From NCBI RefSeq assembly GCF_000817735.3, contig NZ_JTJC03000001.1, positions 186,001 to 250,000 of the forward strand: a DNA stretch of 64,000 bases, written 5' to 3'. The notes under the pieces are model-generated. The model was not told the origin of the DNA. It worked only from the letters and a program-made list of their open reading frames with translations, and searched no databases. The translations under genes were made by a program, and so were the position numbers. The stretch comes from Scytonema millei VB511283. GTDB taxonomy: Bacteria; Cyanobacteriota; Cyanobacteriia; Cyanobacteriales; Chroococcidiopsidaceae. Below, in pieces: positions 24,175 through 53,911 of the stretch; within the stretch, counting starts at the first letter, position 1, and each line of letters opens with the position of its first letter.

Positions 24175-24220
24175 AGATAAATTGTAGAGGCGCTCCCGGG
24201 AACGCCTCTACAATTTATCT
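24175..24220. terminator. 18-bp perfect inverted repeat between convergent genes (bidirectional terminator, GTAG-type palindrome)
   Basis: Arms 24175-24192 and 24203-24220 are exact complements (AGATAAATTGTAGAGGCG and its complement) around a 10-nt centre CTCCCGGGAA. The inner 28 nt (24184-24211) begin GTAG and end CTAC, like the palindromes near the RAYT. It ends the GT4 gene and, in the other direction, secG (AT-rich flanks on both sides). Confidence 0.75.
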
Positions 24221-28512: not shown

Positions 28513-28611
28513 TATTAGGCTGGCTGTATGGGGGGTGGGCGATCGCGCTTATCGGGCATTAGAGGAGGCGATCGTAATTCTCAGCAGAAAGTTAAAGAGT
28601 GCCATCAAAAT

Positions 28612-28893
28612 TTAATAAACCTCATCGTGTGAGCCTAAAGTTAGTAGTAAGATTTCTTCACCCAACTCAGAGCTTTTTACAAACTCAAACAAGATGCGAT
28701 TACTATAGTCAATTGAACAAGCCCATCTTCCTGCTAAATCTCCTTTGAGTTTATGAGTACGCAAACTAGGGTGAAATGGATCTTCCGCTAACTGCTGCAA
28801 GACTCGTTCGATTTGAGGAAGCATCTGTGGATTTTGGCGAACTAGACGTTTAACAGCGCGAGTGAATGCTGAACTTCAAACTAAACTTTTCAA
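28612..28893 (-). pseudogene. RelE/YafQ-type toxin gene disrupted by an in-frame TGA
   Basis: Reading from TTG at 28893 gives L-K-S-L-V-stop-S-S-A-F-T-R-A-V-K-R-L-V-R-Q-N-P-Q-M and then a typical YafQ/RelE toxin body ('RTHKLKGDLAGRWACSIDYSNRILFEF', ending 'LLTLGSHDEVY'). Relatives normally have Trp after 'SLV', so codon 6 (TGA, 28876-28878) looks like TGG changed to TGA. The TTG overlaps the antitoxin stop codon, the usual coupling. Translation could restart at the internal ATG (28824) to give 70 residues, lacking the first helix. Probably non-toxic; the full protein would have 93 residues. Confidence 0.75.
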
Positions 28894-29108
28894 TCGTCCA
28901 GCTCCGCTAAGAAGTCTTTGACTGAACCACGCTTCACATTCCCCTGAGCATAGTCTTGTTCTGCTTCTGCGATTTCTTGTAAAAGTTGCTCCCGTCGTTG
29001 TTGTACGAGTCTTTTTTGCAGAATTTCTAGCAACATTGCTTGCTCATCGATTGATAAAGCTTCTACCGTTTCGATCGCCTGCTGAAACTTAGAGGTTTTG
29101 ATTGTCAT
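28890..29108 (-). CDS. Type II antitoxin partner of the RelE/YafQ-like toxin
   Basis: 72 residues: 'QAIETVEALSIDEQAMLLEILQKRLVQQRREQLLQEIAEAEQDYAQGNVKRGSVKDFLAELDD'. The Leu-rich N-terminal helices and the acidic 'VKDFLAELDD' end are typical of cyanobacterial antitoxins placed directly upstream of RelE/YafQ-type toxins. The gene is intact whereas its partner carries a premature stop. It would bind and neutralise the toxin and repress the operon. Confidence 0.78.
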   Translation of the reverse strand: MTIKTSKFQQAIETVEALSIDEQAMLLEILQKRLVQQRREQLLQEIAEAEQDYAQGNVKRGSVKDFLAELDD

Positions 29109-29229
29109 AGGTTCAGATTGTCTGTTGACTTTATTAAATCTATCCTAAAGTGTAATTTACAGCCTTCGCTTTTACTTCCAAGCGATCGCAATTCTCAGCA
29201 GAAAATTTATTGGTTTGAATAATAAACCT

Positions 29230-29257
29230 GTAGGGGCGCACAGCTGTGCGTCCCTAC
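29230..29257. repeat. GTAG...CTAC palindrome, RAYT-associated REP copy 1
   Basis: 28-nt palindrome with arms GTAGGGGCGCACAG and CTGTGCGTCCCTAC; one mismatch (T for C in the right arm). Lies between the antitoxin gene and the 132-residue gene. Confidence 0.88.
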
Positions 29258-29284
29258 AAGATCTGTATTATTTCAAAATGTTTA

Positions 29285-29683
29285 TCAAAATGTCCATTCG
29301 CGGTTTGGATCGTCTAGTGCTGCTCTTACCGAAGTTAAATTAGCAAGTTCTTTGAATGGGCTGGATTTAGCTATTTCTGTAATTGAATGTAAAGCTACTG
29401 CTAGTTGCTCGTTATTACCTGTTGTAATTGCGCGATCGACTACTTTAAATAAAGCCCGAAAATTTTCCGCTCGTTCGTCAAAAGAGCGATCGAGATATTC
29501 TATTAATACATCTCGCTGAGCATTGATTCTCGCGATCGTTTCTTGTTCCCAAGCTTCAATCTCACGACGCTTAGTTTGTTCTTGTTCGGCAATTATTTTG
29601 TACTCAGTATACGCTGAGACTACTTGCTGTAGAGACTCTAAGAGATTTACATTCTCTTTGAAGAAAGCTTTCTTGACTGGCAT
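29285..29683 (-). CDS. Conserved hypothetical protein, second gene of a two-gene module
   Basis: 132 residues, highly charged and helical, with a predicted coiled coil in 'YKIIAEQEQTKRREIEAWEQETIARINAQRD' (about residues 27-58) and no membrane segment. It begins 2 bases after the stop of the glycine-rich membrane protein gene (29686-30657), so the two are translationally coupled. I do not recognise a named family. The pairing of a soluble coiled-coil protein with a glycine-rich hydrophobic protein suggests a membrane-acting module, but function is unknown. Confidence 0.7.
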   Translation of the reverse strand: MPVKKAFFKENVNLLESLQQVVSAYTEYKIIAEQEQTKRREIEAWEQETIARINAQRDVLIEYLDRSFDERAENFRALFKVVDRAITTGNNEQLAVALHSITEIAKSSPFKELANLTSVRAALDDPNREWTF

Positions 29684-29685
29684 TT

Positions 29686-30657
29686 CTAATTACCTGAAAT
29701 AGTAGAATACTTGGCTCGAATGGTAGCAGTAACAGGATTCAATTGTCCTTGTTCATCTAAAACAGGAGTTTTCATAATTTCTGCAAGTGCTTTTATCAGA
29801 AGTCCTAGCTGTTGAAACTTTTCAGTATCTCTATTTTTATCAAATGATGGTAATAAATCAAGTTCGTTAAGACTAAGAACAGCACGGTCATTAAGTAATT
29901 CGATTAAACCCTTTAACTCAGAAATTCTCTGTCTAACTTGTTGTAGAAAATCTTTTGCTGCGTCAATTTGAGCAATCGCGATATTTACATCAGCTTCGTA
30001 CTTCCGTGCATTGGTTAAAGCTTTCTCACCCTCACCAGCAAGCACAAAACCGCCAATCAACACAGCGGGACCAACGGTAATACCACCCAACACAAGAGAA
30101 CCAAGAGCCATTCCACCACCACCCGCCGCGAGTGAACCACCTCCTAACTAGGCTAGTGTTGCATTCCAAGCTGCCGCACCACTAAGTCCAGAGATAGCTG
30201 TTCCAGTACTTGCCACTCCTACTGAGGTAACAAGACTCATTGCACCGCCATATCCTGCTGTTGCTACTCCAACAGCCTTAGCTTCACCCACAAAGTAATG
30301 CTCGGCTTGCATGGTCGCCGTTTTGTACTCATCAAGCTGCTGAACTGAAATTCCTTCCAATCCTTCTAAAAACTCTTTATCACTCTGTTTTGCTTTGCCA
30401 ATTTTTCGCTCAATAAAGTCAACAAAACGTCCAATTGTACGCACTATTACATCAATTTGAAGTTGCCCATACTCTTGCGCTAGGTCATTAGTAGCATTCC
30501 AGTCTATTTGCAATTGATTGACAGCTTCTTCACGTCGCTTTTGGGCGCGTTGACCGATTTCATTAGCTTCATTCATGCTGGTAACGCCTGAAATGCCTGC
30601 TCCTACACCAAATACGGCAGTCCCTAAAGCAACAGCACCTAATATTAGTGGAATCAC
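29686..30657 (-). pseudogene. Glycine-rich (glycine-zipper-like) membrane protein split by in-frame TAG
   Basis: Two open stretches (30148-30657 and 29686-30111) lie in one frame, separated only by TAG at 30148-30150 and 12 further sense codons. Read through, the junction gives 'SGAAAWNATLA-stop-LGGGSLAAGGGGMALGS', one continuous hydrophobic Gly/Ala stretch; Trp (TGG) is the likely original codon. The full product would have 323 residues: an N-terminal helix (MIPLILGAVALGTAVFG), a charged central region, a long glycine-zipper-like hydrophobic core and a soluble C-terminal part. AGGAGGT lies just after the TAG, so restart at the ATG at 30111 is possible. Family unnamed to me; two separate genes are the less likely reading. 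Confidence 0.72.
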
Positions 30658-30689
30658 AAAAGTCTCCGATTTTTAGTCATGTACAACTA

Positions 30690-30717
30690 GTAGGGGCCCA
30701 CAGCTGTGCGCCCCTAC
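30690..30717. repeat. GTAG...CTAC palindrome, REP copy 2
   Basis: 28 nt, arms GTAGGGGCCCACAG and CTGTGCGCCCCTAC; one mismatch in the left arm. Located just upstream of the glycine-rich protein gene. Confidence 0.88.
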
Positions 30718-30873
30718 AGATATGTTTCGCATACAGTTGAGAATTGCTACATATTTTATTAATTTACACGTTAAAAATTTGGAAAATTTGAGCCTTAAGT
30801 GAAGGTAATTAAAAGCTTGTATAAAGTTTGTCGATCGCGATTATTTTTAATAAATTACTTCCGATACGGTTGA

Positions 30874-30901
30874 GTAGGGACGCACAGCTGTGCGCCCCTA
30901 C
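30874..30901. repeat. GTAG...CTAC palindrome, REP copy 3
   Basis: 28 nt, arms GTAGGGACGCACAG and CTGTGCGCCCCTAC; one mismatch. It ends 35 bases before the RAYT start, so it lies in the transposase leader. Confidence 0.9.
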
Positions 30902-30936
30902 AGATGTGCAAGACATTCAGTCAAAAAAAGGCAATA

Positions 30937-31479
30937 ATGATCTCATACAATTCCAAAATTCATCACCGCCAGTCGATTCGTTTACGTGGTTACGATTATT
31001 CTCAAGCAGGAGCTTACTTTATCACTATTTGTACTCATCATCGAGAATGCTTATTTGGTGAAGTTGTGGATCGTCAAATGCACTTCAAAGTGGGATGTAT
31101 AGTAGCTGAAGAATGGTTGCGCTCATCCAAAATTCGGTCGGGAATCGAATTAGATGAATGGGTTATCATGCCTAATCACATACACGCGATCGTTGTATTC
31201 AAATCTTCTGTAGGAATACCAGATCCGGTAGGGGCGCACAGCTGTGCGCCCCTACATCGCAAACCGCGTTCTCTGCCGTCATTGATTGCTGGGTTTAAAT
31301 CAGCTACTACTAAACGAATTAATGAAATACGCCAGACTCCTAAAATACCAGTCTGGCAGCGAAATTTTTATGAACAAATTATTCGCAATGAAGGATCTTT
31401 AAGTAAGATTCAGCAGTACATTATAAATAATCCTTCTAATTGGCTCCACGATACAGAAAATTTAACTAATTCTATATGA
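30937..31479 (+). mobile_element. REP-associated tyrosine transposase (RAYT, Y1/HUH type)
   Basis: 180 residues from the ATG at 30937 ('MISYNSKIHHRQSIRLRGYDYSQAGAYFITICT' is the family opening; an in-frame ATG at 30904 is less likely). The HUH motif is H81-I-H83 in 'WVIMPNHIHAIVVF' and the catalytic tyrosine is probably Tyr145 in 'VWQRNFYEQIIRN'. RAYTs nick single-stranded REP hairpins next to a GTAG foot. Residues 98-107 (VGAHSCAPLH) are encoded by a 28-nt GTAG...CTAC palindrome inside the gene; the frame is kept. Matching palindromes flank the gene on both sides. Whether the enzyme is still active with the insertion is unknown. Confidence 0.9.
31228..31255. repeat. GTAG...CTAC palindrome inside the RAYT gene, REP copy 4
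   Basis: Perfect 28-nt palindrome (arms GTAGGGGCGCACAG and CTGTGCGCCCCTAC). It is in frame with the transposase, encoding residues 98-107 between the HUH motif and the catalytic Tyr. Confidence 0.93.
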
Positions 31480-31502
31480 CAGCCAGATCGCCATTTTCGC
31501 AA

Positions 31503-31530
31503 GTAGGGGCGCACAGCTGTGCGCCCCTAC
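31503..31530. repeat. GTAG...CTAC palindrome, REP copy 5
   Basis: Perfect 28-nt palindrome 24 bases after the RAYT stop codon; identical to the copy inside the gene. Confidence 0.93.
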
Positions 31531-31652
31531 AAATTGGTGTAATTAAACAAGAACTGCTATAAAATGCGATCGCACTTCCTCACCCCACAATCCCTAAGCG
31601 CGATCGCATTTTCTCATCACAGGGATCTTCCCTGGCGCAGTTTCACATACCC

Positions 31653-53883: not shown

Positions 53884-53911
53884 ATAGGGGCGCACAGCTG
53901 TGCGCCCCTAC
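53884..53911. repeat. GTAG...CTAC palindrome, REP copy 6 (distant)
   Basis: 28 nt, arms ATAGGGGCGCACAG and CTGTGCGCCCCTAC: the same palindrome as around the RAYT, with one change in the first base. It lies 18 bases downstream of the Ycf45-like gene, 22 kb from the transposase. Confidence 0.9.

Follow-up and report, generated by a model that had tools for sequence, protein, structure and literature searches.

Our results indicate that the palindromes clustered in this stretch of DNA (64,000 nt in length, hereafter the window) probably form part of a REPtron, in which a resident TnpAREP/RAYT transposase of subclass 2.4 is accompanied by a cognate family of double-foot REPs, with the REP also serving as the core of a MITE. 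The palindrome has the 28-nt sequence GTAGGGGCGCACAGCTGTGCGCCCCTAC and, counted at up to three mismatches, is found at six places in the window, which are precisely those named in the original prediction; dinucleotide shuffles of the window contain no match. The copies and their associated features are given below, with the palindromes listed without strand; G000 denotes the source genome, and G009 and G008 are two other genomes of the same genus.

29230-29257: double-foot palindrome with one mismatch, 1.7 kb upstream of the RAYT gene
30690-30717: double-foot palindrome with one mismatch
30722-30749 (G000:C1:216722-216749), minus strand: degenerate terminal arm of the 90-91-bp MITE, adjoining the palindrome at 30690 (nhmmer E 0.004)
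30874-30901: double-foot palindrome with one mismatch, in the 5' flank of the RAYT gene
30937-31479, plus strand: RAYT (TnpAREP, Y1/HUH transposase) of 180 aa with NHIH, WQ and YIINNP motifs
31228-31255: perfect palindrome within the RAYT ORF, in a low-pLDDT loop; the same site is filled in G009
31503-31530: perfect 28-nt double-foot palindrome, in the 3' flank of the RAYT gene
53884-53911: palindrome starting with ATAG, with a weak MITE-like right arm (E 0.26); the site is common to G009 and G008

The copies were initially described as perfect, GTAG-bounded palindromes around a transposase gene, which applies to only some of them. Those at 31228 and 31503 are indeed perfect, but those at 29230, 30690 and 30874 contain one mismatch each, and the copy at 53884 is not bounded by GTAG. 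Moreover, while the flanking copies do surround the gene, the one at 31228-31255 is located in frame inside the ORF (30904/30937-31479), where it reads GTA GGG GCG CAC AGC TGT GCG CCC CTA and encodes VGAHSCAPL. The lack of an unpaired loop holds at the sequence level, whereas the folded single strand has an AGCT tetraloop, with GTAG base-paired with CTAC. Similarly, the absence of further copies is correct for the window but not for the genome (5.97 Mb), which contains 239 of them. Compared with this number, the presence of five copies within 2.3 kb has a Poisson probability of ~5e-8, for a cluster that was chosen because it stood out. A separate double-foot palindrome, GTAGAGGCGCTCCCGGGAACGCCTCTAC, is located at window positions 24184-24211 and conserved in G009 (L050:3144).

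The identification of the transposase as a RAYT is well founded. The protein, for which the ATG at 30904 is also a possible start, with alignment favouring 30937, matches the Pfam family Y1_Tnp (E 5.1e-8) and the NCBIfam model NF047646 (REP_Tyr_transpos; E 2.6e-19, 69.5 bits against a curated cut-off of 80, with the match split into two stretches). H81, H83 and Y161 are conserved in the alignment, and NHxH, W[QH] and the YIxNNP region are kept among its 27 members. The structure model (mean pLDDT 83, pTM 0.80) has as its top match PDB entry 4ER8 (E 2.9e-7; TM 0.58 for the query and 0.63 for the target), the E. coli RAYT in complex with a REP hairpin, which is also the sole PDB sequence-profile match (E 3e-8). 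The least confident internal stretch of the model comprises residues 99-106, and the REP-encoded peptide (residues 98-106) occupies the same loop, such that the internal palindrome is predicted to sit in a disordered loop of the transposase.

The motifs NHIH, WQ and YIINNP fit those tabulated for subclass 2.4 (NH[IFV]H, WQ, YIxNNP; PMC6006769), and another feature of this subclass, a double-foot REP both flanking the gene and inside it, is present as well. Judging from these motifs and REPs, the enzyme appears to be a TnpAREP of subclass 2.4 (Bertels group 4). For this subclass, Quentin et al. (2018; PMC6006769) have already described both double-foot REPs and the in-frame insertion of REPs into the gene, and the system studied here resembles the published one in its motifs, in having GTAG and CTAC at opposite ends of the REP, in occurring in Cyanobacteria and in carrying the in-frame REP between the HUH and Y motifs, whereas carriage by a MITE is additional. 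The contrast with E. coli drawn earlier, namely GTAG on both strands, stands but corresponds to the published 'double foot' type (PMC6006769). The E. coli RAYT/REP system (4ER8; PMC8266576) shares the fold and the GTAG foot. In E. coli, however, this foot is unpaired and the REP also contains a bulge and a loop, whereas GTAG and CTAC are paired with each other here. The cyanobacterial GTAG-12, -15 and -16 elements (Di Nocera et al., 2013; PMC3733652) are likewise GTAG-tagged palindromes of filamentous and unicellular cyanobacteria, and GTAG-15 dimers of A. variabilis are embedded in longer palindromic sequences, much like the REP in the MITE; however, GTAG-15 has loops of 9-15 nt, whereas here the arms abut. 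Rickettsia palindromic elements are similarly found in frame in protein genes, as mentioned in PMC3733652 and generally known. Neither the exact palindrome nor the peptide VGAHSCAP was found in the literature searched. The small dispersed repeats of Nostoc, attributed to Elhai et al. in 2008, are reportedly 21-27 nt long, mobile and in some cases part of minitransposons; they are alike as short mobile cyanobacterial repeats, a likeness drawn from their description.

The relationship between the transposase and the palindromes is illuminated by the palindromes inside RAYT genes. Such internal copies are present in 40 of the 111 RAYT loci collected, from several phyla, a proportion that is not a population rate because one search peptide, IPDPVGAH, overlaps the insert and biases the sample. 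Thirteen of the sampled loci have a palindrome in the flank as well as inside the gene, and at these loci inner and flanking copies differ by four mismatches in total, versus 61 expected when the loci are shuffled (p ~1e-5), and the match is retained in the 9 loci left after dropping look-alikes (p ~2e-5); the internal/flanking pairs differ between loci. At the level of sequence, this agreement supports a cognate RAYT-REP pairing. The original proposal that the palindromes are the substrate of this RAYT thus gains support as far as the pairing is concerned, whereas we infer the action of the enzyme itself. Save for two broken frames, internal palindromes avoid the phase in which GTAG would produce a TAG stop. 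They lie 9-58 aa after NHxH and are read in phase 0 or phase 1, and this variation does not support a single ancestral internal REP site in all RAYTs. It is conceivable, albeit doubtful, that the internal copy is kept as a functional cis element, acting either as a master copy that links enzyme and substrate or as an autoregulatory DNA or mRNA target. Such an element would keep the specificity of the RAYT in step with the sequence of the REP during horizontal transfer, and it would explain why internal palindromes recur in several phyla and track the flanking REPs in sequence. Another RAYT, in G009 (L052:3275-4080), has a different double-foot palindrome, GTAGAGACGTTGCATGCAACGTCTCTAC, both flanking and inside its gene.

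The palindrome family qualifies as a REP in that it is high-copy, mostly extragenic and GTAG-tagged. There are 221 copies in G009 and 96 in G008, and only 26 of 96 copies sampled from G000 and G009 lie fully within ORFs, compared with an ORF coverage of 83%. The palindrome sequence hardly extends beyond a single genus. Among 16 other members of the family, 15 have no copies and one has six copies of a variant; within the order, near-exact versions are present in 7 of the 293 genomes. In an order-wide search using a RAYT query with the insert removed, at least 10 double-foot palindromes were present in 77 of 158 RAYT-positive versus 35 of 135 RAYT-negative genomes (Fisher p 7e-5, ignoring phylogeny), with many exceptions in both directions and at least 30 such palindromes in 16 RAYT-negative genomes. 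G009 (stretches L182-L201 and L262-L281) also has an abundant second double-foot family, GTAGAGACGTTACATGTAACGTCTCTAC, which is rare in G000. Almost every copy has a T before it and an A after it, and longer complementary flanks are seen in some. Flank complementarity as an insertion signature was seen at the first few positions in a separate AGACGTT family, and extended flank complementarity is absent in naked copies of the GTAGGGGCGCACAGCTGTGCGCCCCTAC family. After some palindromes in G000, their 3' half plus flank is repeated in a short tandem array, such as GATTCATCTGTGCGCCCCTAC, which suggests slippage at the hairpin.

G000, G009 and G008 share 93-94% DNA identity and long collinear stretches. 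The RAYT locus of G009 is orthologous and REP-studded, with the internal palindrome at the same place as in G000 and a TAG stop interrupting the RAYT gene. In G008, the flanks of the locus are present (97% and 95%), with the 3.0 kb containing the RAYT gene and its palindromes replaced by 1.3 kb of other ORFs, a state that arose either because G008 lost the segment or because the ancestor of G000 and G009 gained it. G008 nevertheless keeps 60-96 palindrome copies without a RAYT at the syntenic site, which, together with the stop in G009, means that the RAYT is at least not needed for their maintenance. Co-occurrence of RAYT and palindrome, put forward previously as a check, is thus not borne out in a strict form, and the order-wide association is moderate. 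The region between an ABC-F-like gene and prfA (window positions 28547-31562) is hypervariable, containing the RAYT gene and small ORFs without Pfam hits in G000. Its G008 counterpart (L284:7351-8686) has another set of small ORFs, including one similar to a restriction-type nuclease.

One route of mobility, evident from gains between species, had escaped the original prediction: many copies form the centre of a 90-91-bp MITE with TAGC...GCTA ends, imperfect inverted arms and no ORF. An arm profile applied to 1.64 Mb of G000 and G009 detected 12 arm pairs, all enclosing a palindromic REP-like core (nine within five mismatches of the family, three variants), and among 20 G000 regions taken from 65 arm-pattern matches, all except one (L324) contained a MITE with such a core. 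Target duplications of 3 bp, identical and of the form TNA, flank 8 of the first 11 MITE copies scored and, in our estimation, recall the IS5/IS1031 group; the MITE is presumably moved by a DDE transposase. A candidate parent IS (G000:C2:12438-13718, L305) turned out to consist of an ordinary gene with a MITE on either side, the two facing each other. MITE-borne copies account for 14 of 47 in an unbiased 840-kb sample of G000, 8 of 49 in G009 and 1 of 14 in 400 kb of G008. The cleanest species-specific gains are whole MITEs (G000:C1:67256 and 122623 and, less cleanly, 530370). Between the species compared, no clean empty site pointed to insertion of the naked 28-bp palindrome, several candidate sites being rearranged or filled with other small repeats. 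The empty sites lacking exactly the palindrome that had been anticipated were thus not recovered. Whole-MITE insertion accounts for the cleanest recent gains and ~30% of the copies; most of the others, which are naked, are common to more than one species or located in repeat-rich intergenic DNA or protein loops.

Palindromes are also found in other genes, whose names are based on sequence likeness judged by eye. A glycyl-tRNA synthetase beta-like gene (glyS) contains an in-frame copy, encoding VGAHSRAPLL, that is kept in all three species (G000:C1:294597, L325; G008, L326; G009, L327), and a PepN-like aminopeptidase gene has an orthologous in-frame copy in G000 (C1:521906, L344) and G009 (L345), with heptamer-type repeats instead of the palindrome in the same loop of G008 (L359). 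The glyS and pepN copies sit in loops of variable length among relatives, and in the glyS loop the relatives have other sequence.

Work on TnpAREP from E. coli and Stenotrophomonas has shown that the enzyme recognises GTAG together with the hairpin when the DNA is single-stranded, makes a cut close by and rejoins strands (PMC8266576). If the RAYT studied here behaves similarly, it would recognise, nick (conceivably on either strand, as originally suggested) and mobilise its REPs in the same manner and so have generated the family; the REP would also have become the core of the MITE, whose insertion as a whole adds further copies. The putative role of the RAYT as maker of the family is deduced from the pairing at the locus and from the enzyme work on other species (PMC8266576); the movement of REPs by the MITE is seen directly in the empty sites.

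Alternatively, the palindromes could be the mere centre of a MITE moved by a DDE transposase, with the RAYT a bystander whose locus happened to collect copies. The REP-like core and TNA duplications of the MITE arm pairs, the whole-MITE nature of the cleanest gains and the persistence of copies in G008 all speak for this reading, but it is unlikely, given that ~70% of the copies in the unbiased sample have no MITE arms, that those inside the RAYT, glyS and pepN genes are naked, and that the agreement between internal and flanking palindromes extends to RAYT loci from several phyla. Even less probable is that the host keeps these repeats because they serve it, for example in transcription termination, mRNA stability or supercoiling, and that the RAYT is a domesticated processing enzyme instead of a disperser. 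The under-representation of copies within ORFs and their survival in G009, where the RAYT is broken, would be in line with such a role, yet there are species-specific copies, the abundant REP families differ between G009 and G000, and copies also occur within housekeeping coding sequence. The chance that the palindromes are random or an assembly artefact is negligible, considering the shuffles, the zero matches obtained with reversed-pattern controls and the use of the same sites in independent genomes.

Collectively, our findings add a well-resolved cyanobacterial double-foot REPtron to a kind of system that has already been published, with the MITE as an additional route. Because the REPs are also carried in the core of a MITE, the RAYT need not be their only means of spreading, and copy number or empty sites alone can therefore mislead about the moving enzyme. 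The match between internal and flanking palindromes provides a usable handle for assigning REPs to RAYTs, and the three species, with an apparently intact RAYT, a RAYT with a stop and no locus, respectively, and the palindrome in all of them, constitute a natural comparison set.
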